Of a stretch of 64,000 nucleotides of DNA, positions 345 to 44,276 are shown one piece after another. The notes beneath the pieces were generated by a model, which was not told the DNA's origin, did no database searches, and worked only from the letters and a program-made list of their open reading frames with translations. Source of the stretch: Corallium rubrum (lineage: Eukaryota; Cnidaria; Anthozoa; Scleralcyonacea; Coralliidae); the NCBI GenBank assembly GCA_964035015.1, contig OZ035998.1, positions 31,120,358-31,184,357 on the forward strand. Reading direction: 5' to 3'. Position 1 is the stretch's first letter. Each line of letters opens with the position of its first letter. Both the position numbers and the translations under genes were made by a program.

Positions 345-544
345 GTATTCCTTTGAATCGACATAATACGGATTCCAAAACTTTATATTTCCATCAATAA
401 TAAAGTTAATATGTACAGCATAATATTTAACTTTGGTGTCATTCCACTTTTCGTCACTCCAGTTTAGAATTACGGACGACGTGTTTTCCGACGTCTGAGT
501 AGAATTTAAACGAAAGAATTTGTTTCCATATTCCTCAACAACGT
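345..544 (-). CDS. Exon 8 (last visible) of a large FN3-containing receptor-like gene
   Basis: This is a 200-nt open exon on the minus strand. The acceptor is CTCTTAAACAG (exon begins at 544, phase 1) and the donor is GTAAGT immediately below 345 (phase 0). It encodes residues 260-326 of the deduced protein. The peptide has the pattern of the first half of a fibronectin type III domain: SSVILNWSD supplies the conserved B-strand Trp, followed by KYYAVHINF as the C strand. There are several N-glycosylation sequons (NST, NTS, NWS, NDT), as expected for an ectodomain. The gene continues past the window start, so the rest of this domain and any transmembrane or cytoplasmic part are not visible. 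Exon boundaries and phase are seen; the FN3 assignment is by pattern; function is unknown. Confidence 0.68.
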
Positions 545-572
545 CTGTTTAAGAGAACAGGGATGTGTTTAA

Positions 573-1250
573 GGTCTTCGTTAAGGTTTACAGAGTTATT
601 TTGGTAAAGCGCTCTCAATTCGTCAGAATTTATGCCACAAAAATAAAATAAATATCGTTAGAAAGCAATTAATTTATATAATACAATGCTGTCTTTAATG
701 TTGCGATAAACATAAACCAGTAAAAGTTGTGAATTTTTTAAGTTAAACCAGAGGGCTTCACTCGGGCCGACTTAAGTACAAAGCGTTTTATTTTGTTCAG
801 AATGGGGTTTTTTGTAGTTCGATTCCAAGATAAACTTCCAGCAAAACGGTGTCAGCACTTTGTCGAGTTTTGCTGATTTTATTGACGACCAAAGTTGAAA
901 ATGCTGTTTTTCGACCAACATTCGGACAAAATTAAGTAATAAAATCGAAAACAGGTAATAAATGGAAAAAAAACTAAAACAGTTTTACTGGAAATTTATC
1001 TCGGAATCAAACTGCGAAAAAAAGATCTGAACAAAATAAAACGCTTTATTCTTATAGTAAAGTCCTCTGGTTTTACCTAAAAAAATTCACAAGTATTATT
1101 GGTTTGTTTTTATCGCAAAATGAAAGATAACATTGTATTCTACAAATTAGTAGCTTTCTAACAATATGTACTTTATTTTGCGGCATACAGTAAACTCTGA
1201 CGAATTGAGAGCACTTTACAGACATGACTCTGCAAACCTGAACGAAGACC
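573..1250. mobile_element. Fold-back MITE, TTAA TSD, TIR GGTCTTCGTT
   Basis: The 678-bp element is flanked by TTAA at 569-572 and 1251-1254. Its left arm (GGTCTTCGTTAAGG..., TCTCAATTCGTCAGA) recurs as the reverse complement at the right end. The arms run about 100 bp and then diverge around an AT-rich centre. It has no coding capacity. The TTAA TSD and RR-starting TIR fit Kolobok-like non-autonomous elements (inference). It lies in the intron just upstream of exon 8. Confidence 0.75.
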
Positions 1251-1460
1251 TTAAATAACTCTCCAAAATTTTCCAAAAAAAAAAAATTGGTCTTTACTAA
1301 TAGTATATTTTAACGCCAGACGATTTTATTGAGCTCTAGGCTTGATCTTTACTAATAGTATATTTTAACGTCAGACGATTTTATTGAGCTCTAGATAGAC
1401 CTTCGGATGAGTTAAAGTTTACGGTGAACATCTAATTTACCAACTTAGTGTGTGAGTTAA

Positions 1461-1810
1461 AGTGCCTATGAAGCTACAATTAAGTTTATCTTATTTGAAA
1501 GAACACTTACATTATAGAGTAACATCATTTCCAGTTTTTTGTTTCCTTGCTTTGTTCTTGAGATATTTTAGTTTATCTGATATGCAAATTAAACATTTTG
1601 ATGTGGTAGGGGCATAATGAGCTATCGGAGAAGGTTAGATATCTTTTCTATTATCACACCAAATTAATTTGAATGAAGCATGTGGAGGTGTTTCGCCCAC
1701 ATCACTAAACATGTAGATCTTCAAGTGATTATCATATATTTGATAATGGAAAAGATTTATAACTTTTTCGATAACTCATTATGCACATGTGATGTCAAAA
1801 TGCGCCGGGC
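1461..1810. mobile_element. Partial fold-back MITE of the AGTGCC family
   Basis: Starts AGTGCCTATG directly after TTAA at 1457-1460. Internal stretches (GAGATATTT, GATATGCAAAT, a CATTATGCA motif) match the complete copy at 22468-22933. The right arm is missing where the next MITE begins at 1811. Confidence 0.6.
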
Positions 1811-1814
1811 TTAA

Positions 1815-2147
1815 AGTGCCTATCTCAGGGTTGGGGATTTTACATATTTAGGATATTTGGAACATTTTAAGACGATTTGTAATATATCTTGTCAGACGAA
1901 AATTTCATCTTCATGGGCTTTTTCGCTGGTAAAGGTTCCGGAAGTGATGTCATTTTGACGTCAAAGCAGGAATATGTGTATATTAAACCCTATTTCTAAA
2001 TCCCTGCTTTGACATCACTTCCGGAACCTTTAACAGCGAAAAAGCCCATGAAGATGAAATTTTCGTCTGACAAGATATATTACAAATCGTCTTAAAATGT
2101 TCCAAATATCCTAAATATGTAAAATCCCCAACCCTGAGATAGGCACT
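1815..2147. mobile_element. Fold-back MITE, TTAA TSD, TIR AGTGCCTATCTCAGG
   Basis: The two arms, about 155 bp each, are almost perfect reverse complements (AGTGCCTATCTCAGGGTTGG at left, its complement at right) separated by about 25 nt. TTAA flanks both ends (1811-1814, 2148-2151). No coding capacity. High arm identity implies a recent insertion or arm homogenisation. Confidence 0.85.
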
Positions 2148-2332
2148 TTAAGCTCTCTAATGTTATTTGCACGTCTGGAGGTTCCAAACGATACAAAACC
2201 CTTGATAAAAATAAATTGACGAGTAAATTAACCATTTACCCGGCAGTGTTGCCATTTGGCAACTCAGACATTTTACTCTGTCTAGCGCCAGACGATTTTA
2301 ATCGTCAATTGGAGGCGTCCTGGTAACCTGCC

Positions 2333-3726
2333 GGGTATGTGGCCCTGATAATATCACACCGCGTGTATTAAAGGAATTTGCTCATGAGTTTGCGGAACCT
2401 GCTGCAACTATTTTTAATACATCCCTAACTTCTGGAACATTTCCCGTTGTTTGGAAAGACTCTTGCATCTCCCCAATTCCAAAAGTGTCGCAACCGACTT
2501 GGGAAGGAGAAACCAGACCAATTTCTCTTACTTCCTGCCTATCTAAAGTCCTAGAAGATGCTGTAGTACAATGGATGATGGCAGATGTCGTGAACAATAT
2601 TGACTTACAGCAATTCGGCTGTCTAAAAGGATCATCAACAGCATATTGTCTTCTCGACATGATACACAATTGGTTATTCCATTTAGATTCCCCTGATAAG
2701 CATATCCGCCTACTTTTTTCAGATTACACCAAAGTTTTCGACCGTATTGGACATAATGTTCTTATTAACAAGCTTATTGATATCGGAGTAAGGCGGTCTT
2801 TGATTCCATGGATCATAAGCTTCTTATCCAACCGTAGACACTGTCTAAAACTTGGTAACGTTACCTCGGATTGGCTGACTGAAGCGGCTGGAGTACCGCA
2901 AGGAACAAAATTGGGGCCAATCTTATTTTTGATTGTGATTAACGATTTGAAGATCTCATCTCCAAGGAATACTGGTATTTGGAAATTCATGGATGATGTC
3001 TCCATCTCTGAGTCCCTGTCAAGGAACAATGAATCCCATATGCAGATCTACCTTGATGAGGTCAAAACATGGGCTGACAACAACCTGATGAGACTAAATG
3101 CAAAGAAATGCAAAGAAATGCATGTCTGTTTGACTGTTTCCTTAAAGAGCGACCCACTTCATCGCGCCTTAACTTGGAGGGACATGCATCCTCTGGAAAT
3201 CGCTTCCCATTATAAAGTTCTTGGCTTGTTCATACAAGATAACCTTAAGTGGAACGAACATATTGCTATGATCGTAAAAAAAGCCTCTAAACGTCTCCAT
3301 ATTCTTAGAGTTCTTAAACGGAGTGGAATCCCACCTCACGAACTGATCCTTATTTACCATGCTCTCATTCGGTTCGTATTGGAGTATTGCTGTATTGTTT
3401 GGCAAAATAGTTTACCAGCATACCTTGCTGATTCAATTGAAAGAGTCCAGAAAATAGCACTGAACTTAATCCTTCCTGGCATGTCTTACCGAGAGGCACT
3501 GAGTGAGCTCCATTGTCCTCGTTTAGATGAGACGCGATGCGCTATGTGAGAAAACGATCAAAAAGATAACTGATGGTAGCCGGCTGTCCGTCTCTTACCT
3601 CAAACTAGAGAAAACGTGAATTATAATTTACGTAATTCTAACAATTGCTCGTTGTTCAAATGTAGAACTGATCGTTGTAAGAAAAGCTTTTTTCCAAGTA
3701 TTATTCGCGTTTTAAATACATGTATG
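2333..3726 (+). pseudogene. 5'-truncated LINE reverse transcriptase (CR1/L2-like), frameshifted
   Basis: The open frame runs from about 2333 (CGPDNITPRVL) to a stop at 3547-3549, so its first useful codon is not the GTG at 2485. RT motifs in order are RPISLTSCLSKVLE, then FSDYTKVFD (motif A), AGVPQGTKLGP (motif B), FMDD (motif C), KVLGLFIQDNLKW and the C-terminal VLEYCCIVW. After the stop, homologous sequence continues in other frames (RRDALCEKTIKKITDGS, then RLLPQTRENVNYNLRNSN), so at least two frameshifts disable it. The endonuclease is absent, as in a 5'-truncated insertion. It would copy its own RNA at a nicked target if intact. The clade is inferred; the RT identity is clear. Confidence 0.9.
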
Positions 3727-3927
3727 TCGTTGTGACTCTTTTTTGAACTTTTAAATTATGATCATATATACTTGTCTTACATAATTAAATTTTTATTGTA
3801 AATATAGTATTACCCATTTTGTAAATTTGCAACCTTTGCAGTTATTTGTAAGCACATTGTAATTCATTTTTTTTGCGATGATGTGCCATTAAACCTTAAT
3901 TATTATTATTAATTATTATTATTATAT
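3727..3927 (+). mobile_element. 3' UTR and (ATT)n tail of the LINE at 2333
   Basis: AT-rich sequence without ORFs, ending in ATTAAACCTTAATTATTATT and an ATT microsatellite. A short-repeat tail rather than poly(A) is the usual end of CR1/L2-type LINEs. It sets the 3' border of the insertion. Confidence 0.65.
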
Positions 3928-4250
3928 GTTAAAAGAGACGCGAACTTCAGACAAATCAATCTGACTTAATTTTATATACCAACGTTTTGCCCGTCCAACT
4001 AATCAAATTCATAAGGCTTAAATAAGCAATACGTAAATAAATCAGTCAATATAATATATAGCTATTCGTATTGCAATGTAAAAAATGTTCTCAAAAAATA
4101 TGATCAGATAATCCGAATCTAATTAAAAATAAAAACAATTAGTTTAAACAAAAATTGGCTAGTAAATGTATCTATATCTTCAAACAAAGACAGAATGACT
4201 CTTTGACTTTCAAAGAAATAGAAATTATATTTTTAAAAAGATGCAAAAGT

Positions 4251-4254
4251 GCCC

Positions 4255-4285
<31 letters not shown>

Positions 4286-4512
4286 AAGCAACAAAAAAAC
4301 CCACAAAAAACCCCACAAAAACAAACAAACAAACAAACAAACAAACAAACAAAACAAAACAAAACAAAACAAAACAAAACAAAACAAAACAAAGCAAAAC
4401 AAAACAAAACAAAACAAAACAAAACAAAACAAAACAAAACAAAACAAAACAAAACAAAACAAAACAAAACAAAACAAAACAAAACAAAACAAAACAAAAC
4501 AAAACAAAACAA

Positions 4513-4543
<31 letters not shown>

Positions 4544-4646
4544 CAAAACAAAACAAAACAAAACAAAACAAAACAAAACAAAACAAAACAAAACAAAACA
4601 AAACAAAACAAAACAAAACAAAACAAAACAAAACAAAACAAAACAA
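4251..4646. repeat. Poly-C tract and (AAAAC)n microsatellite
   Basis: About 25 C, then A/C-rich sequence, AAAC units (4320-4351) and about 60 AAAAC units with one AAAAAAAAC interruption near 4515. The period of 5 leaves no stop in several frames and creates spurious TKQNK or CFVLF ORFs on both strands. The array lies in an intron, ending 8 bp from a micro-exon. Confidence 0.97.
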
Positions 4647-4654
4647 ACACTTAC

Positions 4655-4693
4655 AATTACACCCACAAATCTTCTTTGGCGACTTGATGCACG
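4655..4693 (-). CDS. Candidate 39-nt micro-exon (exon 7) of the FN3 receptor-like gene
   Basis: On the minus strand a strong acceptor (CTTTATTGTAG) is followed by 39 nt and a near-consensus donor (GTAAGTG). Read in phase 1 it gives CIKSPKKICGCN, open and Cys-rich, and it exits in phase 1. That fits between exon 6 (ends phase 1) and exon 8 (starts phase 1) without changing frame. The join would supply residues 247-259. It could be alternatively spliced, because skipping it keeps frame. The support is splice-site quality and phase only, so it is the least certain exon with exon 1. Confidence 0.42.
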
Positions 4694-4696
4694 CTA

Positions 4697-5010
4697 CAAT
4701 AAAGATATAGAGTAAATAACTTTCTCAAACTCATTAAGCCAAAAAACTCAATCAACTGCATTGAGCCAAAACAAACTTACTGTAACTACTAAAAAAATAT
4801 AAGATAAATTTAATAAATAAATTTAAACAAAATAACAGTTATTATAATACAGTTTATCGTTTAAGAGATGAATGTATTGACTGACCATCCTACATGTTTA
4901 CTTTTTAAAATAATAAACTATTAACGTTCAACTTTGTTTTCTAAAAGTGATGCAATTTTTTTCTTGCTCAAACTTGATGTAGGAAGTCAAATGTTTCAGT
5001 CAAAGTCAAA
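4697..5010. other. Intronic AT-rich sequence, nothing recognised
   Basis: No ORF, splice-site pair or repeat unit stands out. Confidence 0.5.
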
Positions 5011-5011
5011 T

Positions 5012-5560
5012 GGTCGGCCCCTAAGTAGACTGGAACGATAACTCGCTTGCACGTTTTGAAGCCAAAAATGGCGGACATGGGGACCGCCATGCACGTCACC
5101 CCCAGTCCCTTTTACTGTATAGCCGAGAAAAAATGAAGCTGAATTTAGTGAAATGGGTTGCAAAAACAGCTTGAAATCAACTGAAGAAAAACTAAACTTG
5201 TTAACCACTTTTAGGCTTAAATCAAATTCCAATATACCGTAGCGTATAGGTGAACACTGACATGACGAGTAAAAACAAGAAAAACAGTAAAATTATAAGA
5301 TCTCAAATGAAAGTCAACAATACGCAACCAAAATTGCGAGTTTTCAGTTTTTCATTGTGCACTTTATAGGTTCCGTTGACGTGCAGTGGCTACCCCCAGC
5401 GGCCGTAACTTTCACTTCACCCAATCATTATGGGGTTAGCGTTCCAGTTTATTTAGGTTCAATGATCATGACCACTGATCTCTATATAAACTGGATGGGC
5501 CATGGGTCGAATTTCGCGTGTCAGTTGTATGATGACGTGACCACTATATACCCAAGATAG
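5012..5560. repeat. Copy of the GGAACGATAACTC TIR repeat family (deleted centre)
   Basis: 5012-5338 matches 40089-40398, from AGTAGACTGGAACGATAACT to the ATGACGAGTAAAAACAAG and AAAGTCAACAA motifs. 5339-5560 matches the far end of the full copy (TTTTCAGTTTTTCATTGTGC, CCCCCAGCGGCCG, GCGTTCCAGTTTATTTAG). The middle block seen at 13168 and 40399 is missing, so this is an internally deleted derivative. Confidence 0.7.
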
Positions 5561-6224
5561 CTTTCGAAGATTTAAAACAGACAAAAAGAGTTACTTAAAG
5601 AAGATTTAAACGAATGTAAGGACACAAGAAGTACTCAATAAGGTTTAAGACGCTAATTTCTTGCATTTGTTTTATCACTGAGCTGTAAAACGTTTAAATT
5701 TCGTTGTTTTTCTTCAGTGCCGACAACAAAGAAACTTCACGATAATATAAACTGAAAAACAGACTATAAAATCTACTAAGAATTTTTAAATTTTACCTTT
5801 TATAGTAATATTAATGCCTTAACAATATCTCGCGTCGTGTACTTGCCATCTTTTGACTGTATTTGTTGTTAAACAGTGAAAACTAAACGAACCGGCATCT
5901 GTTGTTTGCTCTACGGCTTTTGCGACTCCTCCGGCACAGAGTACTTAATATTCTTCCCCCCGGATAATCTGACCGTGCTGACGTCAAGATTGCTTATGCT
6001 AGTCAACTTTGGGATTATGTTGCACTACGTAAGATTGCGGCGACTGGCACGAAATGTTTGACTGCTGGCCATATATAGGGAATGGCCTATCCAGTTTATT
6101 TAGAGATCCGCAGTGGTTACAACCGTACAACGTTTTAAATTATACAATTATTTTGAAAATAACCAAGGTGCCCCTTTTTGGCGGTGTCAATCCAGCCAAG
6201 CGGTCGCTTTCAAACTTTCAGGAT
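5561..6224. other. Unassigned intronic sequence with a second repeat end
   Basis: Mostly unique AT-rich sequence. CCAGTTTATTTAGAG at about 6090 echoes the terminus of the TIR family above, so part may be another degraded copy. The short ORFs lack codon bias or motifs. Confidence 0.4.
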
Positions 6225-6368
6225 TGTGTAAAATCTTCTCCCAAAATGCAGGAAATGCCATTTTAGAGACTCTAGATCCCTAGATTTCAAAATTTTCCGG
6301 GGGAGCATGCCCCGCGGACCCCCCAAGAAGTTTCGCTCCTCCCCTTTCAAAATCCTGGCTACGTTCCT
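6225..6368. mobile_element. hAT-like GC-core repeat fragment
   Basis: AATGCAGGAAATGCCATTTT, TTTCAAAATTTTCCGGGGGA, GCATGCCCC and the terminal AATCCTGGCTACGTTCCTG match the family at 36925-37285 and 41060-41216. Only the right end is present. The minus-strand peptide NFLGG-RGMLPRKI is the translated repeat. Confidence 0.7.
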
Positions 6369-6439
6369 GGCGGCAACAATCTGAAAACTTTTTGTTACAA
6401 GCAGGCAACCAGCATAGAAATGTAGTTTAGACATTGATC

Positions 6440-7540
6440 AAGATGACTAGGCCGGTTGCCTTCCGTGTATCACAAGATAGTACTGTTGAACAGTTGAGTT
6501 AAATGTCCAAGGGTATTATGAGCAATACTATATAGCTACTATAGTACAAAAGCTCAGCTTTATAACAGTAGATAGATGGCGGTATCGGCAAATTACCAAA
6601 ATAAAACGAAGTAATTTACGAATATGAGACTTTCCTGTAGCTACCAGATCTAATAAATTTCTGATTCTTGCCAAGCTTACTTTTTGTGGCCTATCTTCGA
6701 AGTATTATATTTAGGTGTATTCACGCCGTATTTCTTGTTTGTTTATGATTGTGAGGAATGCGAATTAGGTTAAGCAAACTAGAGGCACGCTGATTGGATA
6801 GCATTCTGAATTTAGCTAATTCAGATAAAATACAAACGTAAATAGGCAGCACTTTTCAGATATCCTATCCATCACATCGAGTTTTCAAAAAGCTCTAAAT
6901 TTTAGTATATAAATCAATAATTACGGCTGCCAATACCCCTCACCTTCAAAGTATACACTATCCGTTACGATTTAGAATGGTTGCCTGCTTGTAACGAAAA
7001 ATGCAATCAACGGTGTTTTGAGACACTTTTAATCGAGGTTGGCCGGCCGTCTATTATACGGTGATCTGTTATCGTTCAATTGCACATTTGATCCTAGCCA
7101 GCAAATAATTAAGGCCATTTTCCATTACGTGCGCTTTGCCCAAGCGGACGGAGAGGGCTTTAAAATTTGGAAATTTTCAGCTTCCAAAGCGAATTATAAC
7201 ATAGCTTTGATATAGCAACGTTTTTGATTGGCTGTCGTGCGTGCTCCATAACTCGATGGAGCACGGCAAAAAAGCGCGGGAAAAAACTTCAAAACAAAAC
7301 TGAGTTTTAAATTGACTTTTTGTGGCCTTTTATATTATCAAAATACCGAGTCATTTAATTTTATTGAGTAATAAAGAACAACGACCCAGAAGACATAAAC
7401 TGGGTCTGGGTAACCGAGTTTAAACTGTCCTTTTGGTTGGATTTTAGTGAACAAAAAAGACTTGGATACGAAAGTAGAAAAACACAACAACCAAAACGCT
7501 TGTGAGAGGATTTAATGCTATGTTATAAAAGAAATGGCTC
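6440..7540. other. Unassigned intronic sequence
   Basis: No gene seen. The palindrome TCCATAACTCGATGGAGCACG at 7247 recurs twice in the fold-back at 7543-7706. Confidence 0.4.
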
Positions 7541-7542
7541 AT

Positions 7543-7706
7543 GGTTTAGTGTGCTCCATCGAGTTATGGATGCACTTGGGAAATTTGGAGAGCACTCAAA
7601 AATCTAGACTTGGTCTCGGCTACGCCTCGACCAACTCTTACAATTTTTTCGTGCTCTCCCAATTTCCCGCATGCATCCATAACTCGATGGAGCACGCTAA
7701 ACCATG
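7543..7706. repeat. Fold-back repeat with GTGCTCCATCGAGTTATGGA arms
   Basis: TGGTTTAGTGTGCTCCATCG at left is mirrored by the complement ending at about 7706 (CGATGGAGCACGCTAAACCA). The centre holds a smaller palindrome around CTTGGTCTCGGCTACGCCTC. It is non-coding. Confidence 0.75.
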
Positions 7707-7709
7707 AAC

Positions 7710-8335
7710 CATTTCTTAACTGAACAATGCTCGCGCGGACAAAGCGCGCGTGATAGAAAACAGCCTTTAAAACCCGTAGGTAAAATCCTAGCGAATTAAG
7801 AACCTGCAGGCTGAAATTTCGCATTTAAAACCCCAATATGCTTAAGAAACCGTTCAGCCTGAAAAATAAAACAGGTCCTTGTTTGCAAGAATCGCTTCAA
7901 AAATACTTATTTGATTCAAATAAGTGATAACGGTCGTAATTATTTCGCCTGAAAGGTGAAAACATTCTCATATAAATCCGGGATTAAAATGGTCCCGTCC
8001 CACTTCATTTCCCCATCCCGGCTGCAATGTAAACAGCCCCAAAAAAGTCACAACTCACAAAATAAATCTGACAGTCATACCAGGTGTGTGAAAGTTCCAT
8101 GTCGCACCAATTATATTTTTATGCCCAAAAGCATTTTTCTGTTTTATCTAACATAAAGGAAAAACAAGAAGTAAATTGAAAGACATTGAACAAAGAAAAA
8201 CGCTCAACATTTCCCGTCCCGATTGGTCTTTATATTATTTTATTTTGACTTCATCAAATTCCGTGCATGTGCGCGTCGGGAAAAACGTTACAAGGAATAG
8301 AATACTCGCGTGATAATTTGTGTGCGCAAGAATAA
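7710..8335. other. Unassigned intronic sequence
   Basis: No convincing exon, RNA gene or repeat boundary. CACATAAACCCGGGA-like text at 7970 (ACATTCTCATATAAATCCGG) recurs near 58990, so part is dispersed repeat. Confidence 0.4.
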
Positions 8336-8339
8336 AGGA

Positions 8340-8635
8340 TAAAGGACTGGGGGCTAATCATCCTTACTTGCAGCTAGCGGTTGAATTGCGAAGGACACAG
8401 ATCAACGTGGCCGTGTCGAGGCATATCAAAGGCGCTCCAGGCAGCCGCCATACGACGCAGTTCAGACCACGGATCACAGCTAAGATGTTAGGTGTTGATT
8501 TTATGGAGGGAGGAAAACCGGAGAACCCGGCGAAAAACCATCGAAGCACAGGAGAGATCAGCTACAGCTTTACTCACATAAGTTCCAGGCATCGGCTGGT
8601 GGATTCTATAATCTGATTGGCCGGTTAAAGAACCC
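8340..8635 (+). repeat. Dispersed repeat with GGAGGAAAACCGGAGAA core
   Basis: The block GATTTTATGGAGGGAGGAAA, ACCGGAGAA, AGCACAGGAGAGA, TACTCACATAAGT is shared with 41990-42110. The 98-aa ORF here is the translated repeat (GGKPENPAKN...). I know such peptides as a frequent artefact in coral gene predictions. Confidence 0.65.
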
Positions 8636-8699
8636 TCTATTATTACATAAACATATAATGCAATTATTGGCTCATATTTTTAATAAAAATCTACATTAA

Positions 8700-9370: not shown

Positions 9371-9402
9371 TTAATCTTATAATTAAATTTAATATTTTAC
9401 AC

Positions 9403-9505
9403 CTACATTAACTTGGTACCAACAGTCAAAGTAAAGTCCTTTCTCTCCTATTTTTTTATCAATTAAAATATCGTGACTTGAAAGATTCTTGTCTATCACC
9501 TTTTC
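9403..9505 (-). CDS. Exon 6 of the FN3 receptor-like gene
   Basis: The acceptor is TTTCTATATAG (exon from 9505, phase 0). The preferred donor is after GTAG at 9403 (GTGTAA, phase 1). The exon is 103 nt and covers residues 213-246. The peptide begins EKVIDKNLSSHDILID and ends KGLYFDCWYQVNV, which matches the F-G strand pattern closing an FN3-like domain (aromatic-x-aromatic then alternating hydrophobics). Two other donors (GTAGGT at 9406, GTAAAA at 9400) would give phase 0; phase 1 is chosen because exon 8 and the micro-exon both start in phase 1. It lies 30 bp beyond the MITE end at 9370. Confidence 0.6.
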
Positions 9506-9778: not shown

Positions 9779-9779
9779 G

Positions 9780-28810: not shown

Positions 28811-31800
28811 ATTTTACAGTATGTTTAATGCAAGAGGAGGCTTTAAATTTAAATTTGTTAATACGAACAATTATGTATTTCGTCGGTGGTCGCTTCGAAG
28901 ATTATGCAAGCCGAAATTATCTCATAGCCGAGTTGCTTATTACTCCAATTCTACGGCCACTAAACGGATTATTCTGCTTTCTGGCGATATTGAACTTAAC
29001 CCGCCATACAAGACTTTGCTAAAACTGTGAACCAAGAATCTACTAACTTGACGGTCGCACATATAAACATTCGCAGCCTCAGGAACAAAGTTGGTGAAGT
29101 TAAGTTACTTCTTCAAGTGGGCCGTTTTGATATTCTTGCAATTACAGAGTCGTTTTGGTACAGGAAAATTTCTAATCGGCAGCTCGAAATTGAAAACTAG
29201 AAGATTATAAGAAGGGATAGAAAAGCTGGCTCTGTTGGTGGTGGGTGTTTGGTTTACATTGCTAATCATATTTGCTCGATGCGGCTAAAGTCAGAGACAT
29301 CAGAAATTGAAGGAATTTGTATACGTATCTTAGTGAATTATACATCATTTATCATTGGGAATATTTATTGGCCTCCTTCAGATTCGGCCTTCTTTGATCA
29401 TTTTCACGTTGTGCTGGAAAAGGTGTGGGTCAAATATAAAAACGTTGTTCTCCTCGGCGATTTCAATTGTGACTTTACCTTCTCGGATGAAGGTGTGATT
29501 AATTCAACTACGGGTAGAAGGTTACAAAGAATATTACAACAGCTTGATTAAACGGTGGTCAATGAGCAGCCTACTAGGGTCATTGGCGTCTCTTCTACAT
29601 TCCTTGATCTTGTCATAAGCAGCAAACCAGAATTGGTCAAAAGTACTTTGACACTTGAACTTGGTATCTCGGACCATATGCTTGTATTTGCTTCTATGGT
29701 GACCAGAGTTAAACGTCCACCTCCTAAAATTATACACGCTCGTACATTCAAGAGATTTGACTGTGGTGAGTTTAAGAGAGATATTGAATGGTCCGTTTGC
29801 TCTGTTTGCTCTGGTCCGTTTGCTTTGTATTTGACGATCCAGATGACTATTACTGGGCGTGGTTTCACATGTTTTATGATATCTGTCAGCGCCACGCTCC
29901 ATTTAGGCAGATTAAAGTCAGACGACATTCCTTGCCTTGGATAACACCCCAAATCCGGCATATGATGAACTTGCGTTTCAAAACTCTTCTTATAGCCAAG
30001 AAAACAAATTTCCCTGAGCATTGGGCGGCTTACCGTGAGTTGAGAAACAGCTGAGTAACACATGTAATTATTATATGGACTTATTTGATGAAGTTAAGGA
30101 TTGCAAACTGCGTACTGGAGGTTGGTGAAGCAAGCTACCAACAGCTAATTATCTCAGCCAATAGTGGGAATAAGGAGACCTGATGGGGAAATCGAAACCG
30201 CTGATGAGAAAAAGCCTGAAATACTAAACGATCATTTCTCGACTATTGGTGAGAGCGATGGATCTCCCAGCATATCTTGGGGATAGGAATTCACATATTG
30301 CATGTATTACTCCAACTAAGATGAATATTGATTTATCTTATGGTTCCATTTCCAAAAGTCTTGAGAAATTAAAGGCTAATAATGCATGTGGTCCTGATAG
30401 AGTTACACCTAATTTGATTAAAAAGGCTGGTGACTATATTATTCCATCTTTAATCCCCATATATTAAAATAGTGCTACATGTAATACTGTACATGAAATA
30501 TGGAAGTCTGCAAACGTGTCCTCCTTGTATAAATATGATGATGAGACTGATAAACAGAACTATCGACCCATTTCTCTGCTATGTGTTCTGGGAAAGCTAA
30601 TGGAGACAAATGTAGTGTCTACTATATACACTCATATGGTTGATCAAAATCTTGCTCACCCTAATCAGTGGGCATATAAACAAGGCCATTCAACAGAAAT
30701 GTTATTGGTTAAAATGACGGAGGACGGGAGGAGGGCCTTGGATGATAATCTTGTAGTGGGAGTTGTATTGGTGGACTTTCGAAAGGCGTTTGACTCAATA
30801 TCGCATGAAGTATTGATGCAGAAACTTCAAGGGCTCGGCATAGTTGGTGATATGTGGAGTTGGATTCGGGATCATTTATCCAACCGTTCTCAGGTCACTT
30901 ATGTAAATGGTTCTAAATCTAAAGCTATGCCAATCAAATTTGGAGTGCCCCAAAGATCCGTGCTTGATCCAACCTTATTTTCATTTTTTAATGACCTCCC
31001 AGATGTAGCGGAGGATGAGGGGTTATTCATATATACACAGACGACACTGCCATATATGTGATTGGTCCCTCTCCAGATATTGTTGTTATTTTACTTAATA
31101 ACACTTTAAGAAGGTTGTATGATTGGTGTTGTCCAAATCGTCTTACACCTACCTCATCCGGGAAAATCAGAATTTATGTTACTAAGTAGACCTTTCACTG
31201 GTCCATTACAGGGGATCAAGCTTGGAAATTGTTATATAAAACATGTAACATCTACTAGATGTTTAGGTGTATAGATAGATAATCAGTTGAAATGGAAGGC
31301 CCACGTAACTGAGCTAATTAAGTCGTATTCTCAAAAGCTAAGTTTACTTCGATCATCATATTTTCTTTCTTCCACCTAAAGTCAGAACTGACTTCTGTTT
31401 TAAAGTTATTTTACCATCTGTTACTTATGGTCTCCTGATCTGGGGTTCTTGTGCCAAGACACTATTTGACGAATTGGAACACATTCATGTAAGGGCAGCT
31501 AAGATCATTTACGGTCTAGATTGGTACACTCCCAGTAATGAAGTGCTTTGTCGCACAAACTGGTGCACTTTACATCACATGCTTTCTACTAGGCTTACTA
31601 TATTAGCTCATAAAAGTTTTTATTGTCAAACACCTGTACATTTGACTTCTTTGTATGTAAAAGGTGATTTTAAGTATAATCTTAGAAGGAAGCTAACATT
31701 TGTTTAGCCTAGACCAAGGACTGATTATACGAAAAAATCAATAACTTTTAAGGCAATTTCTATATGGAACTCGGTAGATAATAATGTAAGAGCTATTAAT

Positions 31801-34174: not shown

Positions 34175-34500
34175 GTGTTCAGACTCATCCAATAATTTTT
34201 AAATATACGAACGCAGAAGCATCACAAACAAATTAAATAATAAAAAAAAAACATACTGTTTGTATGAATAAAATCACTCCAGTTACTGAAGGAAGACGTT
34301 TTATTCATTGTTACGGCTGCAACTCGAAACGAATAGTTCATCTTTGCTACTAAATCTTCTACGGTGTAAACTGATAGATTCGTCTATTGGAATAAAATAA
34401 ACGATGTCATTATTACTCGGGTTACTTGTGGTAGAGCCGAATATTAAATTCAGCTCTGTCTTTTGTATATATTTTATTTCGCTTCACCTTACGCCACTTA
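34175..34500. other. Unassigned intronic sequence
   Basis: ATTACTCGGGTTACTTGTGGTAGCCGA recurs at about 57610, so this includes a dispersed repeat. No exon is seen. Confidence 0.4.
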
Positions 34501-35063: not shown

Positions 35064-35257
35064 TTTATGATACTTCTTTATGTAAGGAAAATAGACGTTG
35101 CCACTATAGTTCGTCCAGCTTGGCTGTACTTGCAAGATATAACTGACAATTGTCATGTTGGACACGTTTGTCGTGTTCCACTTTACTCGGATTGATCTAT
35201 ATTCTGAACTAAACAAAGTTGGTATTCCTGGCGTCGGTAATTCACGCTCTTGATCTG
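35064..35257 (-). CDS. Exon 3 of the FN3 receptor-like gene (FN3 domain, first half)
   Basis: The acceptor is TTATTTTTAG (exon from 35257; GCAG three bases later is an in-frame alternative), entry phase 1. The donor is GTAAGT after AAA at 35064, exit phase 0. The exon is 194 nt, residues 58-122. It encodes LPTPGIPTLFSSEYRSIRVK, W, and then TIVSYILQVQPSW. This is the classic FN3 A-B-C strand pattern: P-x-x-P, S-S...I-x-V-x-W, then Y-x-L-Q. Four N-glycosylation sequons (NTT, NVS, NMT, NYS) support an extracellular location. It is the strongest coding exon in the window. ROS1/sevenless N-termini have a similar Cys-rich segment followed by such an FN3 domain; cytokine-receptor FN3 domains are the alternative. 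Confidence 0.8.
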
Positions 35258-35309
35258 CTAAAAATAACAACAAGATATCAAAGTTGAATACTTCACAAAT
35301 CTTCATTGA

Positions 35310-36420: not shown

Positions 36421-36924
36421 CCCCCCCCCCACCCCCCACCCCCCAAACTGCGAGGCCTGGCGCCGCCGCTGGTGGTTAACCAGAGGCAAGGAAACGAAGC
36501 AAAAGAATACGTTATCTGAACTGTTGAACGATAAATTCTGTTCTATAATAATCAACAGCTGAAGTTTTAGTATTGATCATTACATCGCATTGAGTCGCTA
36601 ATGAATTTGTCACTACAATGGTGACTCATAAAGTAAGACAAACATGAAGGGGGTAGGGGCCCACAATCTTTTTTTTTAGTCAGTCCCCGAACAATGTTTC
36701 AATTCTTTGGTCTCTGAAAGGGTATTTCCTGCATTTTGAAGGCACTATTCTCGGCTACGACGCCAACTCGATTCAAAGTATTCAATTGGCAAGCTTTTCT
36801 AGTTTTTTTTCCCAAATTGTCGTCAAACTTCAGTCCCTAACCACAACAGAACCTTAGCTGTTTAGAAACAGAAACGTATTTGACGACATATTCTGGAATA
36901 GCCGCGAAAGGACTGGAAGGGTCC

Positions 36925-37285
36925 AGGGACGTAGCCAGGGGGGGAGCCGTGGGAGCCGCGGCTCCCCCCCTTTTGATATAAAACGACAGACATGTAACTA
37001 CAAAATTGATGCAATATGAATTGTGTCAGGAAATAAACTGTAAACAGTGTATTCAATCTACTGAGTGTATGCATTTTGAGTATCTATGTGACGTTTGCGT
37101 GTTTTGAGTATTTTATATGACGTTTTTTTACCTTTAGAGTCTGTAAAATCTTCCTCCAAAAGCCAGGAAATGGCATTTCAGCGACTCTCGATTTCAAAAT
37201 TTCCCGGGGGAGCATGCCCCCGGACCCCCCTAAAAAATTTTTTATTTCGGCTCCCCCCCCTTTCAAAATCCTGGCTACGTGCCTG
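36925..37285. mobile_element. hAT-like MITE with GC-rich core (CAGGGACGTAGCCAGG ends)
   Basis: Left end CAGGGACGTAGCCAGGGGGG, right end AATCCTGGCTACGTGCCTG. Right half carries the core TTTCCCGGGGGAGCATGCCC, CCGGACCCCCC. An almost identical copy without the left end is nested at 40908-41216. CAG-starting TIRs fit hAT; the 8-bp TSD is not clear here. Confidence 0.7.
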
Positions 37286-37401
37286 AGTCATCCCTTTTAG
37301 CCGAAACCGGCCGAATATGCCAAATACGTTTTGGGAAACGCCCAAGTTCAGGTTAGCCCTGGTCTGCCTACACTACTGGCATGCGTGGACGATTTACAAA
37401 C

Positions 37402-37468
37402 CTTGTTTCATGCGCCCTTCAAGATAAACATCATTGCAAGTGTTCTTGCAGATACTTTCTTCTTTGAC
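37402..37468 (-). CDS. Exon 2 of the FN3 receptor-like gene
   Basis: The acceptor is TTGTTTGTGTAG (exon from 37468, phase 0) and the donor GTTTGT after CAAG at 37402 (phase 1). The exon is 67 nt, residues 36-57. It reads VKEESICKNTCNDVYLEGRM then KQ. The C-x3-C pair continues the C-x3-C pair of exon 1, giving a four-Cys N-terminal segment. The donor is weak at +3 and +4. Phase joins exon 1 (exit 0) to exon 3 (entry 1), and without it those two would not be in frame; this is the main support. Confidence 0.52.
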
Positions 37469-37489
37469 CTACACAAACAACATTATTAG

Positions 37490-37845
37490 TAAAGTTGAAC
37501 AATAACACAGAAACTTAACCTTGGCTTAACTTATTTTTAAGATTTATTGTTATTTCGTCTGGAAAAGGCTAACGTCGCTGAAATGCGCGAGATTCTCAGT
37601 AGCAAGCGCGAGAGCGTGAAATGAGCCCAGAATGCGTGAGATTCACGCGGGATGCGTGAGACTTCAGACTTGGGATGTCCACACTCCAGTAGTAGTATGT
37701 GTGCCGCAGACGAATATGGATAGATATGCGATCTTCATTGACTTTGTACATTAACTGCATTGTTCATCAATGATGGCAGTGCAGTGCTGTACAAGGTTCA
37801 CCCGGCACATTTGGCACCTTCTAGTGATTGCCTTACATGAAAACA
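37490..37845. other. Unassigned intronic sequence
   Basis: AAATGCGCGAGATTCTCAG...GAATGCGTGAGATTCACGCG repeats (37576-37665) are short, imperfect and non-coding. Confidence 0.4.
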
Positions 37846-37850
37846 CTTAA

Positions 37851-38292
37851 AGTGTCTATAAAATGAAAAATTCGTTGGCATTTTTGTTGTTTTATGGTAC
37901 AGAGGAGAATGGCAGGAGCACTCACTGAAAATTTCAAGAGAATCTGATGCGTAGTTTTCGCGCTATCAACTCTCAAAATTTGCCGTGGATAGTTTGTTTT
38001 GGGGAAATTTGGGCTTCTTGGTAACCATGCCTTATGACGTACGCAGATGGATTATTAATAGTGAAATCTATTGTTCTTATGCATAGTTGTCCATCTGCGT
38101 ACGTCATAAGTATTGTTTCCGAAAGCCCAATTTTTCTCCAAGAACGAACTAGCCATAGCAAACTTTGAGAGTTTATGGCGCGAAAACTACGCATCAGATT
38201 CTCTTGAAATTTTCAGTGAGAGTGCTCCTGCCATGCTCCTCTGTACAATAAAACAACAAAAATGCCAACGAATTTTTTATTTCATAGACACT
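37851..38292. mobile_element. Fold-back MITE, TTAA TSD, TIR AGTGTCTATAAAATG
   Basis: TTAA at 37847-37850 and 38293-38296. Arms of about 190 bp pair throughout (AAATTCGTTGGCATTTTTGT, GATGCGTAGTTTTCGCGC, TTATGACGTACGCAGATGGA). Same TSD and AGTG start as 1815 and 22468, but a different arm sequence. Confidence 0.88.
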
Positions 38293-38299
38293 TTAAAAG

Positions 38300-38750
38300 C
38301 TTCATGACGATGTATTGTATTTCAATTGTTCTAACCTAGCTACAAGTAGCTTCCACTAGACTAGCACATATGCTGTCATGTCTCTTTCTCTGATTATCTG
38401 CCTAATTCAGACTGGACACTTTTTCTTCCACTTTTGGCACCCTTTCAAGCCTTTCACGCCTTTCACGCCTTCAGTGGCGTAACTGGTAATCTTCTGGAGG
38501 GGAGGGACGCGAAATTTCCCGACAAGTCTCTAGCAGTTAACCATGTTACTAACAGTAGTTTGGACACGACATGGCCAAGGCTGTAAAATTTGACTTGGCG
38601 GTAAAAAGTAAAAGAAGTAAAATTCTTAGACGGCATAGTACACCTACGCAATAATATAATAGACTCCCCAGTAAATGCTAACTACAGTAATTACAGTCAC
38701 ATGCAGCAAATGTATTCAAATGGTGTTTGAACTTGGTACTATTTATCAAT
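38300..38750. other. Unassigned; one hAT-like terminus
   Basis: CAGTGGCGTAACTGGTAATC at 38471 is a hAT-type end without a partner. The rest is not recognised. Confidence 0.35.
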
Positions 38751-38756
38751 TATAGA

Positions 38757-38876
38757 CCTGGAGCGAAGGGTATTCCACAAAAAATTACCCCGAAGGATGA
38801 AATAACATTTCATCCCGAGGGGTAATTTAGTGTGGAACACCCCGAGCAAAGGGTCTATAATTGATATAATATACCG
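38757..38876. repeat. Fold-back TATAGACCTGGAGCGAAGGG
   Basis: TCAATTATAGACC... and GGGTCTATAATTGA ends; inner GTATTCCACAAAAAATTACC pairs with GGTAATTTAGTGTGGAACAC; centre GAAGGATGAAATAACATTTC. Non-coding. Confidence 0.8.
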
Positions 38877-38984
38877 AAACATATAATCTTTCAAAAAAAA
38901 CCCTTCTTTTTTGCTTTCTTTGTATTTTTTGAATTCTTATTTTCTTGTTACTCAACAATTTTCTTGTCAACATTAATGTTCAGG

Positions 38985-39185
38985 CCGGCGAAACGTCTTC
39001 TTGTTCCGCCATTATGGATCGTGATCGGTGGCCTCATTGGGGTGGTGAAACAATACGAATTTTCTGAATAAGAATAGAGCTAAATTCCAATAGGATAAAA
39101 GATGATACAGCAATATGGCCGCCATTTCATTGTTTCGGTACACCAATATGGCCGCCGTGACGTCAAATGAAAACCATCTATTGAC
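38985..39185 (-). repeat. Inverted partner of the repeat at 20160-20365
   Basis: GATCGTGATCGGTGGCC, GGGGTGGTGAAACAATACGA, GGTACACCAATATGGCCGCC, GTGACGTCA are the complement of that copy. Confidence 0.75.
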
Positions 39186-39199
39186 AGCTTCGTTTTGGT

Positions 39200-40050
39200 T
39201 TTCGCGCGTGGCATTCACGCGTGGTACACGAACTTTTGAGTTGAGGTAACGCAACAAACATATAATAAATTATAACAAATTGTTATTCGAATAAAAAATG
39301 GTATGTTGATGCACTATTTTTGATGAAAATTCCAGGTACATGTCTTTTATATCAGATGAACATTCAAAAGTACCTTGAATTAGTAATTAATCGGCTTACT
39401 TGCTGGGTTCTTGAAGTTGACAAAAACGTCCATGATAAGTAAAGTTCTGTTTTAGGAATGTTGCCAAGATTATCAAAGGGTCTTAGAGGGGAACCAACAC
39501 TGCAAGTTAGGAAATTTATAAGGGGGTCTGGGGCACAATGATCTCTATAAAATAAACTGGATTGCTCATCTGGCTTCATTATCTGGCTTCAAAAATGAAG
39601 TGATGACGAATTTGGAGTACCAAGATGGCCGCCACGGAAACTCTGTTGTTTTCGTAGCACGAAAAGAGACGAAAAGAGGGGCATTAAGAAAATTCTTGCT
39701 ATTGGTATCAAACAAAGATCACTGTACAAGGTTTAGACGCTTAGTTTTTGCATTTGTTATTATTATTAAGCAGTAAAACGTGTTATTTCGTAGTTTTTTA
39801 TTCTGCCCGGTAATCAGTCAATAAAATAACCTCATTGTAAAACTATCTATATACCTGGTCCTTTGGTATTAAAACAAGTCTTTACAAAGCCTTGAAGTAT
39901 GTAGTTGACAATTTCGGACTGTATTTCCTTGTATTTTCCTTTTACAGTTGGTAAATTGACATCTGAGAATTGTTTTACGGCTTTTCCGACCCCGGGTATA
40001 AAACTCGCAATATATTACTACTCTTAAGCCTGCAAAGTACACTGGACTTG
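39200..40050. other. Unassigned intronic sequence
   Basis: TTGGAGTACCAAGATGGCCG (39614) and TTGGAGTACCAATATGGCCG (40050) are related words about 440 bp apart. No exon is supported. Confidence 0.35.
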
Positions 40051-40055
40051 GAGTA

Positions 40056-41300
40056 CCAATATGGCCGCCAGTGGCTTCAAACATTGAACTCTAAGTAAAC
40101 TGGAACGATAACTCGATCGATGGCGTATCATGAAGCCAAAAATGGCGGACATGGGGGCCGCCATGCACGTCAATCCCAGTCCCTTTTACCTTATAGCCGA
40201 GAAAAAATGAAGCTGAATTTGGACTTATTTAGTGAAATGGGTTGAAAAAAAACTGAACTTGTTGACCACTTTCAGGCTTAGATTAAATTCCAATATACTA
40301 TAGAGCAGGTGAACACTGACATGACGAGTAAAAACAAGAAAAACAGTAAAAATATAAGGTCTCAAATGAAAGTCAACAATATGCAATCAAAATTGGCATG
40401 GTTTGGACAAATATAAAGAAAATACATAAGCATCTCATGTTTAAAAGGAAGAGTTTGTTTATAAAGACAGTTGGCTTTTAAATTTCTCAATTTTCAGTAG
40501 AAAAAACCCAACAAAATTCACTTTACCGGGTGTTATTACAGCTCTGGAGTTACTCTTTGTATCGAAAAAAGTCAGATTTAGCATTTCCACAACTGAAACT
40601 TGAGTTAAAGCTATACTTTAACCTCAATCTTTTACTAATTCTTGGCATGCCAACCTTCAAACTTTGAGATAACAAAGAAAAATAAGAAAAACCTGCATTT
40701 TCCGTAGAGTTTCGGACTCGAATTTTGCTTTTGTTCGGCAGATGTTCGGCCGATAAGCCCAATACGTACTAGCTTCTTCGGCATAATTTCTAAAAACCTT
40801 TAGGCATAAAAAATTATGAGTTTTCTGGTTGATTTTTGCAGCGAGTTTTCAGTTTTTCAATTGTGCCACTTCATGCCCCCAGCGGCCGGAAGTTTGACTT
40901 CACCCAAACAACAGACATGTAATTACAAAACTGATGCAATATGAATTGTGTCAGGAAATAAACTGTAAACAGTGTATTCAATCTACTGAGTGTATGCATT
41001 TTGAGTATCTATGTGACGTTTGCGTGTTTTGAGTATTTTATATGACGTTTTTTTAACCTTTAGAGTCTGTAAAAACTTCTTCCAAAAGCCAGGAAATGGC
41101 ATTTCAGCAACTCTCGATTTCAAAATTTCCCGGGGGACCATGCCCCCGGACCCCCCTAAAAAATTTTTTATTTCGGCTCCCCCCCCCCCTTTCAAAATCC
41201 TGGCTACGTGCCTGCCCAATCATAGGGCCAGTCTTATGGAGTTATCGTTCCAGTTTACTTAGAGTTCAATGGCTTCAAAATGTTTACTGCTGACCATATT
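40056..41300. mobile_element. Full-length copy of the GGAACGATAACTC TIR family with nested hAT-like insert
   Basis: Ends CATTGAACTCTAAGTAAACT, GGAACGATAACTC and the complement GAGTTATCGTTCC, AGTTTACTTAGAGTTCAATG. The inner region matches 5012-5338 then 13168-13790. 40908-41216 is an inserted piece of the hAT-like family, absent from the 13168 copy, which reads CACCCAATCATAGG straight through. About 0.94 kb without the insert. No transposase. Confidence 0.8.
40908..41216. mobile_element. Nested hAT-like MITE fragment
   Basis: AACAACAGACATGTAATTAC to AATCCTGGCTACGTGCCTG equals 37000-37280 with few differences. CCCAA is present on both sides (CACCCAA / CCCAATCA), consistent with a target duplication. 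The left TIR is lost. Confidence 0.75.
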
Positions 41301-41985
41301 AAAAGGATGACTCTGAAATGCCAATGCCATTTCTTGCCTTTTGGGAGAAAGTGATAAAGGTAGGAAGTGAAACAAAATACAAAAGTGAAGTATATAGTCA
41401 AACCAGATGTTCTCTATTAAATTGATACGCATATGAGATGTTGTTTGTTGACATGAAATTTTGTCCCAAGGAAGTAGCATTTGAATGAAGCCAACATGGG
41501 GGCCCCCTCCCTCGGGACTAACATTGATAGGTGCATGATTCCCCAATGAGTTTACTTAAATTATTGGTTTCATTTAAACATCAAACAACACATAAATGTG
41601 ATGTTGTACTTGAAGTTTATGGCTCTAACTTTACGTAAAATTTCGCATTACTTGAAGTTTGTCATCGAAAACGATTTTTTAGAGCAGCCTATCAAGAATT
41701 GTGATTTATAAGCATTTGTAAGTCACTGATTGAATCCCACCAATCAAAATTGCAATGTTGCCAATCAATATTGCAAAGTCATACAAAAAAAGTAAGAGTT
41801 AGTGAGTTAATTGACTCCAAGGCATTATATAGTTCTTAATATTATAACATGCAATTAGATTAAAAATAAAAAGAAAGGAGCTGCAGCTCTTGAATTTAAA
41901 TTTATTAAATTTGCCACTTAACGTGTGGCAGGAGAGAGGAACAAAACTTTCGTCCCAATTGACACCAAACTCCTATGTGTAGACA
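41300..41985. other. Unassigned intronic sequence
   Basis: AATGCCATTTCTTGCC-type words (41318, 53206) belong to the GC-core repeat family. No exon is seen. Confidence 0.35.
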
Positions 41986-41989
41986 ACTA

Positions 41990-42175
41990 AGACCTAGGTG
42001 TTGATTTTAGGGGGGGAGGAAAACCGGAGAAAGTGGTGAAAAACCCTTGGAGTACAGGAGAGACCAACCAAACTCTACTCACATAAGTCCCAAGCTGGCG
42101 GAGGACGGGGCTATTCCCAAACGGTCAAAAGTCTAAAAATCGAAAGTTTTAGATGAGGGGGGGGGGGGGGGGGAT
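41990..42175 (+). repeat. GGAGGAAAACCGGAGAA repeat, copy 2, plus poly-G
   Basis: GGTGTTGATTTTAGGGGGGG, AGGAAAACCGGAGAAA, AGTACAGGAGAGACC, CTACTCACATAAGTCCC align with 8490-8590. A G19 tract ends the block (42156-42174). Confidence 0.65.
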
Positions 42176-42179
42176 CAGC

Positions 42180-44165
42180 ATGACACAAATAGGTGTCATA
42201 AAAGGGAGTATGCCCCTCCCCCAAAAGGGAGGTCCTCTTTAATAGGGTCTCTGAGAAATGCTAATTTTCTGCATTTTCAAAGCACTTTTGAGAGCAAACA
42301 GACTTTTACCCTGTTGAGGATGTATAGTGCTGGGGAACAATCTATACTTGTAAATAGGATGGGTGCCAGTGGGTGATCCCTCAATCCAATATCCTCTGCA
42401 GGCTATGCAGACTATGACAAATGCTGATATGGAACATGCCAGAGCTGTTGGGTGACTGATATAGTTTCAAAAGATTGGCACATTAGTGGCACATTATCCA
42501 AGCATGCAGTTTCTTGAATCATGCACAATACATGTTAATTGAATTTCTGAAGCCTAATTTTCACTACTCCTAGCACGATAAAGACAAGTGAAGCACAATG
42601 ACATACACAAATGCAGTTACCATGTCACCTAATTATTCTAGATGTTGTCACTGTGCCAGTGATGGAAATACACTTTTTCAGGTTGGGGGCCAAAGCCTCA
42701 TAAATATCTGACAAATATCATATTAATATCCAACAAAATTACAAATGCATGAAAAGCAGTGGATTTGACTGTTTTCCCCTCACTTTGCTGTTGAATATTT
42801 CCAATAAATTGACTATTTCCCCCCCCCCCCCCCCCCCCCCCTATCACCATCAAAATTACTGCACAGTAGGCTACACAATCTATTCTTTCTATTACTAAAT
42901 AACACACCACTATTAATACTGCGCCAAGAATGTGTCAGTTATTACTATACACTACATTTACTTTTTGACTTAGAAAAACATAAAAAGACCCTTACAAAAA
43001 CAAAACTACAACATACTGTCATTTGATTCCTGTCTGATTTGCAAATCTTTTTGCCTAATGATTGTTTTATGTTATCTGTCAGGGAATGTTGTTTTATCTC
43101 TTCCACTAAGTACCATAGGCCATAGCACAATTGTTTCGCTTGCTGGCAAATTACATCGAATCAGCTTAGTGTCTTTATTGGAAACTTCTCAAATATCAAA
43201 CACTTGTTACAATCTTGCTCTACTCACTATCTTGGCTAGCTTTAGTTACACAAAAACACAAAAACCTTGAAATCAGTTCTTTAAAACCAATAGAACCAAT
43301 GACCTTCAGTTCGTTGTGCAATTGCATAATAAAATACGTATCCTCAGGCTATAGACGAAATCGTAGTTTCAATTGCGCATAGAATCTAAGTCGGGATAAA
43401 ACGTAGTTCATTTATACCATGAGGCTGAAGCAGCCGTAGTAAACATAACATTTCTGATTTCAGAAACTTTTTAATGTTTAGGTATTCGATAAGGATAAAC
43501 TTTGCTTATCGATTATCCTTGACAATAATCCTAAACGTAGTGTCTAAAAATAATGAACTCAATACATGAAAAAACAGTCCCAGCCCATGTTATCTCCCCG
43601 TTATGTTTTAATGGACACGATGTAATTTGCATAGGGGCCCAAATTGAATAGGAAATAATTTGCATGTGGACGTAAATGAAACTACGATTTGGTGTATACA
43701 TAGTTTAAATTCTAGGGGAGTATAATTATAGTACCGCCGATAGCGATACAAAACGTACATCATCATATCTTGATATCTATAGACCGGCTTGCCAGAGAAG
43801 AGATCTATGTTCATAACAAGTACACAGAATATACCAAGACATGAAATCTTCCATCATTAAAAATCGGGACACGTACGGCGCTGCGCTTCAGTCGTGACTC
43901 GCGTACAGTATTAATTAAAACCGCATCATTTCGTCATCATTTTAATACATTTCAGCCTTCTCAGATTCTTGAAAATTTATACTGATGACTCGGGAATAGC
44001 TTTGGGATGCTAACTAAATTACTAAACTATTATATTCCGCATGTACAAGTTTGCTTAATTAGAGTTGATATTTTCAATCTAATAATTGTAATATCGACTA
44101 ACACTAAACGGAAATTTCGCTGGACTACCGCCCGCATTGAAACCAAAACACGCGTACGCGTTTTA
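42180..44165. other. First intron, mostly unique AT-rich sequence
   Basis: A poly-C tract (42820-42841) gives the Gly-rich ORF on the minus strand. Otherwise I see no repeat border, exon or RNA gene. It lies between exons 1 and 2, so regulatory sequence is possible but not shown. Confidence 0.4.
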
Positions 44166-44171
44166 TGTTAC

Positions 44172-44276
44172 CTTCTTTCCGCACTCTTGGACACATTTTT
44201 CTTCGTTATTTTCCTCTGCAAGATGGCCGTGAAAAATCAGCACCAAAGCCAAAACGAGCATCCGTAGGTAACACAT
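44172..44276 (-). CDS. Exon 1: signal peptide of the FN3 receptor-like gene
   Basis: ATG at 44276-44274, with a second in-frame ATG at 44261-44259 (MLVLALVLIFHGHLA). The stretch from Leu7 to Ala20 is a typical hydrophobic signal core with a small residue before the likely cleavage, followed by acidic EENNEEKCVQECGKK. The donor GTAACA follows AAG at 44172 (phase 0); +5 is not G, so it is moderate. The exon is 105 nt, 35 codons. The next 44 kb on this strand holds exons 2-8 in consistent phase. No TATA box or Inr was recognised upstream (44280-44520), which is ordinary for such genes. If the donor is not used, the frame stops two codons later and this would be a chance ORF. Confidence 0.5.

Follow-up and report, generated by a model that had tools for sequence, protein, structure and literature searches.

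A Corallium rubrum gene of about 84 kb predicted to join an FN3 and EGF-like ectodomain to a split tyrosine kinase

The ectodomain of FGFR is Ig-like, that of TIE follows the order Ig, EGF, Ig and fibronectin type III (FN3), with EGF and FN3 both occurring, and that of ROS1 has N-terminal Cys pairs and YWTD propellers placed among FN3 domains; class I cytokine receptors are built of paired FN3 domains with a WSxWS motif and carry no kinase. Work by Suga in 2012 reportedly describes several radiations of receptor tyrosine kinases. As far as an excerpt of PMC8662651 goes, the FPVR group (FGFR, RET, PDGFR, VEGFR) emerges in eumetazoans and features a conserved hinge-region Asn, the molecular brake, RET has a cadherin ectodomain, and FN3 ectodomains are associated with InsR and Sev. 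Here we describe a locus of the anthozoan Corallium rubrum that lies partly in a stretch of 64,000 nucleotides, the window (contig OZ035998.1, referred to as C8, positions 31,120,358-31,184,357 of the 474-Mb assembly GCA_964035015.1). A chain of minus-strand segments in the window very probably supplies the ectodomain exons of a single gene that covers about 84 kb and is predicted to encode a single-pass receptor tyrosine kinase; the window holds the 5' half of this putative receptor gene, and the kinase half lies just outside it.

Used as one query, exons 1-4 (Table 1) give a Pfam fn3 match of 32.4 bits (cut-off 25; E 1.1e-7) whose matched region spans exons 3 and 4, while neither exon 3 alone nor exon 8 alone matches Pfam fn3. 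A profile of 45 FN3 domains encoded in this genome was run over the 8,157 open segments with splice borders in 184 kb (5,081 on the minus and 3,076 on the plus strand), and the top three places fall on exons 4, 3 and 8 of the window at 17.9, 14.1 and 10.8 bits, followed by a fourth place at 7.5 bits; the best plus-strand segment reaches 6.8 bits. The exon 8 score is not significant taken alone (E 0.13), and in the top-scoring variants exon 3 begins at 35248 and exon 4 ends at 34278. Positions left of the window, where 120 kb were fetched, are given as negative coordinates, the C8 position being 31,120,357 plus the window coordinate. Nothing convincing as the second half of the exon 8 FN3 domain was found in -2500 to -5302, nor in the 10 kb beyond exon 8 of the paralog described below.

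The sequence-only reading of the window had proposed that downstream exons be sought left of position 1, and there, on the same strand, we found a pair of exons for EGF-like modules, followed by a membrane span and a tyrosine kinase. The nine exons that start with the membrane span and end at -36299 are in phase with one another and give 1,386 nt free of stops, and their product matches PF07714 with an E of 2.8e-80, covering positions 1-257 of 258, and contains the motifs GRGAFGEV, VAVK, HRDLAARN and DFG. The kinase is split by an insert, with PPAY within the insert and YVNL (YVN) after the kinase. The EGF-like modules are identified by their Cys pattern and by two Pfam EGF models, both below cut-off (25.4 versus 26 bits and 16 versus 27 bits); the membrane span of 20 residues has a mean hydropathy of 3.3 and the N-terminus is hydrophobic. 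The product combines a predicted signal peptide and one predicted membrane span with a complete tyrosine kinase domain and its catalytic motifs, as a receptor tyrosine kinase does. From its N-terminus the predicted protein would comprise the signal peptide, a C-x3-C segment, an FN3 domain, the part encoded by a Cys exon, one or more additional FN3 domains, a pair of EGF-like modules and the membrane span, and on the intracellular side a juxtamembrane part, the split tyrosine kinase with its insert and a tail.

The evidence that ties both halves together comes from a second locus about 8 Mb away on the minus strand of C8, spanning about 315 kb from 22.86 to 22.55 Mb, which holds exons 1, 3 and 4, the Cys exon, exon 8, two EGF-like exons and the catalytic-loop exon in the order and on the strand of the window gene. 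Since this collinear paralog repeats the exons in order, strand and phase, the two halves are best read as one gene. In the paralog exons that were read out the phases are equal and the intron positions correspond, with small differences in length, and exon 1 agrees in Met, signal peptide, C-x3-C and donor position. The EGF-like exons are identical to those of the paralog at 14/40 and 19/39 residues; the paralog has at least three such exons, so that their one-to-one pairing is uncertain. A genome search with exons 1-4, run to E 10, returned 11 matches (four self, three at the second locus, two on C11 and two weak ones elsewhere), and a search with the other exons returned 21 (eight self, five at the second locus, four on C10, C11 and C216, and four weaker EGF-like ones on C37, C292 and C156).

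Over 382 aligned codons in eight exons, the window gene and its paralog differ by a non-synonymous divergence (dN) of 0.31 and a synonymous divergence (dS) of 0.86, giving a dN/dS of about 0.36, with 112, 85 and 157 differences at the three codon positions; at this level of codon comparison purifying selection relative to the paralog is evident. The ectodomain exons have a dN of 0.24-0.63 versus 0.12 for the catalytic exon, a contrast that is overstated, as the latter is the most conserved part of the kinase. Further copies of paralog exons occur on C10 (200,572 bases), C11 (137,500 bases) and C216, and because the synonymous difference between C8 and C11 in exons 3 and 4 is 0.07, these copies would be either divergent haplotigs or a recent duplicate.

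Within the window, where the inner coordinates of the earlier chain were not given, the segments were rebuilt from a listing of minus-strand splice-bounded open segments, using approximate splice-site weights of our own that were not trained on this genome. The eight rebuilt segments join into 1,035 nt or 345 codons with no stop and 15 N-glycosylation sequons. The earlier chain keeps its strand, order and receptor-like content, and the idea of a very long, sequon-rich gene for an FN3-bearing receptor is borne out by the Pfam match, the sequons and the extent of the gene, but the 978 nt, 326 codons and about 10 sequons first reported are not recovered. Joins five and six also have other phases than in the earlier chain, which makes these two different models. 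Agreement of phase, which had been put forward as rare by chance, carries no evidence, because at the thresholds used 11,369 in-phase minus-strand triples fit the length of the middle three exons, as do 54,926 on the plus strand. For segment picking and triple counts we used a codon model in which two of the eight FN3 training loci (L007 and L008) were wrongly oriented and whose training set also took in the left-hand EGF, membrane and kinase exons; a corrected model was applied only to ab initio chaining and to the joining of membrane and kinase exons, and the Pfam, PDB, FN3-profile and paralog results are independent of both.

The paralog supports five of the eight segments with equal phases (exons 1, 3, 4 and 8 and the Cys exon). 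Exon 2 probably belongs to the gene as well; of the Cys-bearing segments that could link exons 1 and 3 in phase 0 to 1 it is the best, and its C-x3-C pair and splice score speak for it. The two unverified candidates are unsupported as exons, with FN3 scores of at most 2.6 bits, and in the whole-genome search they and exon 2 gave self-matches only. Reading the Cys exon and these two candidates as a single FN3 domain was rejected at 1.4 bits, and ab initio exon chaining over 86 kb filled the introns with segments that had no homology support and yielded no usable model. A listing of open reading frames of at least 100 codons catches two of the eight segments, namely exon 3 in a 101-codon frame and the Cys exon in a frame of 213 codons made up largely of simple repeat.

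Table 1. Exons of the predicted receptor gene and of its paralog. Window coordinates are negative to the left of the window; phases are given from start to end of the exon.
Feature	Window coordinates	C8 coordinates	Strand	Phase	Remarks
Exon 1	44276-44172		minus	ends 0	start codon, signal peptide, first C-x3-C pair MCYLRMLVLALVLIFHGHLAEENNEEKCVQECGKK
Exon 2 (probable)	37468-37402		minus	0 to 1	second C-x3-C pair VKEESICKNTCNDVYLEGRMKQ
Exon 3	35257-35064		minus	1 to 0	first half of FN3 domain 1; acceptor 35257 or 35254
Exon 4	34383-34257		minus	0 to 1	second half of FN3 domain 1
Cys exon	26186-26064		minus	1 to 1	SCEKKKCGVTNFRMELFSFVPYKGPEDLNSTFYWEPTIES; paralog-backed
Unverified candidate exon	21886-21771		minus	1 to 0	good splice scores only
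Unverified candidate exon	9505-9403		minus	0 to 1	strong acceptor, weak donor
Exon 8	544-345		minus	1 to 0	first half of further FN3 domain
EGF-like module	-5303 to -5425	31114932-31115054	minus		six Cys; Cys pattern
EGF-like module	-7480 to -7605	31112752-31112877	minus		six Cys; Cys pattern
Stem exon	-8541 to -8585	31111772-31111816	minus		short, weak
Membrane-span exon	-10100 to -10313	31110044-31110257	minus
Kinase, eight exons overall		31084058-31104804	minus
Kinase exon 1	-15553 to -15809		minus
Kinase exon 2	-17608 to -17801		minus
Kinase exon 3	-29216 to -29330		minus
Kinase exon 4	-29856 to -29956		minus
Kinase exon 5	-32263 to -32465		minus
Kinase exon 6	-32946 to -32986		minus
Kinase exon 7	-34478 to -34574		minus
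Kinase exon 8	-36136 to -36299		minus
Tail exon (probable)		31082858-31082986	minus
Tail exon (probable)		31080814-31080915	minus		stop at -39543
Paralog exon 1		22861544-22861720	minus		41%, E 0.0022; 19/35 identical
Paralog exon 3		22,783,963	minus		57%, E 1.6e-14; 36/61 identical; same donor position
Paralog exon 4		22,777,986	minus		56%, E 1.7e-9; 27/42 identical
Paralog Cys exon		22745122-22745262	minus		60%, E 7.6e-12; 25/40 identical; same acceptor and donor positions
Paralog exon 8		22671399-22671548	minus		52%, E 9.9e-4; 28/58 identical; same phases
Paralog EGF-like exon		22,594,244	minus		E 3.7e-4
Paralog EGF-like exon		22,605,911	minus		E 0.0021
Paralog EGF-like exon		22,611,957	minus		E 0.13
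Paralog catalytic-loop exon		22,546,399	minus		53/67 identical; twin on C10

Several observations weigh against a single receptor gene of the predicted form, which was read from genomic sequence. To pass from the phase 0 end of exon 8 to the phase 1 start of the first EGF exon, one joining exon is needed; it was found neither between 345 and -5303 nor in the 10 kb beyond paralog exon 8, and it may sit in a run of exactly 2,500 N that abuts the left edge of the window (-2499 to 0, C8:31117858-31120357; the 30 kb right of the window have no N run). The phases clash where the last kinase exon (-36299, phase 1) should meet the tail exon (-37371, phase 0), and either of two donors, at -29315 or -29330, could mark where the kinase-insert exon ends. 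The paralog has yielded a single kinase exon, at a distance of 125 kb from its exon 8, and the matches of exon 1, exon 8 and the EGF exons are individually weak; their weight as evidence comes from their order and from the phases they share. The joining exon that is not visible and the N run parting the halves would suit a pair of adjacent genes, with exons 1-8 forming a secreted or short receptor and the EGF/receptor kinase part to their left being a gene of its own. Although no search aimed at start exons of a separate kinase gene was made, this arrangement appears very improbable to us, as both halves are represented at the paralog locus with order and strand unchanged, and as exon 8 ends in phase 0 within an FN3 domain, so that its gene must continue. 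Decay into an inactive receptor gene, to which the long repeat-filled introns and the one absent and one mismatched join might point, is very improbable given that neither the joined window exons nor the joined membrane and kinase exons contain a stop, that splice sites are common to the paralog, that dN/dS is low as given above and that the catalytic motifs are present. Apart from the open joins, the structure of the one receptor gene is established at the level of genomic sequence, as are the domain homology and the main catalytic motifs.

The sequence-only reading had likened the locus to ROS1/sevenless, with a cytokine-receptor-like molecule as the alternative. An orthologue of ROS1/sevenless would account for the signal peptide, Cys pairs, FN3 domains and tyrosine kinase, and FN3 is linked with the InsR and Sev kinase families in the excerpt cited above (PMC8662651). 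However, when the joined kinase is ranked against solved structures, which yields a ranking and not a tree, none of the best 60 of 784 sequences is ROS1, ALK or the insulin receptor; an EGFR construct that contains the kinase twice leads the list (258 bits when both copies are added up, the main stretch of each giving 119), RET (227.6 bits) and FGFR1/2 (FGFR1 at about 226 bits) come next, and besides the EGFR construct all of the best 60 are RET or FGFR1/2. Two EGF-like modules precede the membrane, and a crude motif look in minus-strand open frames of at least 45 codons found no YWTD-like propeller. With the kinase nearest to RET and FGFR, the ROS1/sevenless assignment is hardly credible. The cytokine-receptor alternative does not hold either: the match of FN3 domain 1 to gp130 is weak and non-significant (E 0.12), and the protein ends in a tyrosine kinase. 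The likeness to gp130-type FN3 extends to a W-S element near the end of FN3 domain 1, which reads SNWSD in the window copy and SEWSD in the C8 paralog and so holds only part of WSxWS in the window. The C11 copy of FN3 exon 4 (L067, C11:115410-118553) reads SEWSEWSD, containing WSEWS.

Among the known families, the predicted receptor resembles RET and FGFR in its nearest kinase domain and in the insert between the kinase halves, but its ectodomain of FN3, Cys exon and EGF-like modules differs from the Ig-like one of FGFR and the cadherin one of RET. The catalytic-loop exon alone places the EGFR construct first, followed by TIE2 (66.7 bits) and RET (65.8 bits), and the P-loop exon alone places VEGFR2 and FGFR1 first. 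The FN3 part precedes the EGF part here, unlike in TIE, and no Ig model exceeds its cut-off in the parts scanned (one reaches E 0.056). Most of the nearest solved kinases belong to FPVR families, which by this ranking are the nearest group. The kinase motif KHDNVIQ contains an Asn that may lie at the FGFR molecular-brake position. A combination of FPVR-like kinase and FN3/EGF ectodomain appears to match none of the named families compared, and the titles and abstract openings among the literature matches listed mention no anthozoan receptor kinase of this architecture. We consider it a rather unlikely, if tentative, possibility that the gene stands for a class of anthozoan receptors whose cytokine-receptor-like FN3 ectodomain, borne on an EGF stalk, drives a split kinase of FGFR/RET-like type, with an outer part that evolves at two to five times the rate of the one kinase exon compared; under that reading the faster outer part would be expected of a receptor following a changing ligand. 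The gene is a version of a familiar kind of protein, not of the family first guessed.

The introns hold long simple repeats and reverse-transcriptase frames at 2302-3546 and 30468-31058, antisense to the receptor gene. On its 5' side a 742-codon plus-strand frame with a reverse-transcriptase domain occupies 47553-49778, and 54175-55032 contains two tandem copies of a 413-bp unit, 98% alike and each with the same 68-codon minus-strand frame; the unit may represent an exon that was duplicated. Some 62-66 kb to the left of the window, a cluster of minus-strand frames (L015:4025-8188) includes an integrase with a chromodomain (Pfam rve and Chromo), and neighbouring frames of 449 and 180 residues, without a Pfam match, presumably resemble components of an element of the Polinton type. 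Scanning the window against Rfam and for tRNAs gave no match in either case. Elsewhere the assembly has one GFP-family match, whose closest solved structures are red fluorescent proteins such as drFP583, which come from anthozoans; this fits the anthozoan origin of the DNA.

By analogy with the receptor tyrosine kinase family, a ligand would bind the glycosylated FN3/Cys part, the receptors would pair and their kinases phosphorylate each other, and tyrosines in the insert (PPAY) and tail (YVNL) would recruit SH2 adaptors. A gene whose exons, about 2.9 kb in the model, are spread across about 84 kb is recoverable by homology and a collinear paralog where the calling of open reading frames and phase matching fail. 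The locus adds to an early-branching animal a predicted receptor tyrosine kinase whose outer part is unlike the named families compared, and the ligand of this receptor could show what signals early-branching animals read with FGFR/RET-like kinases.

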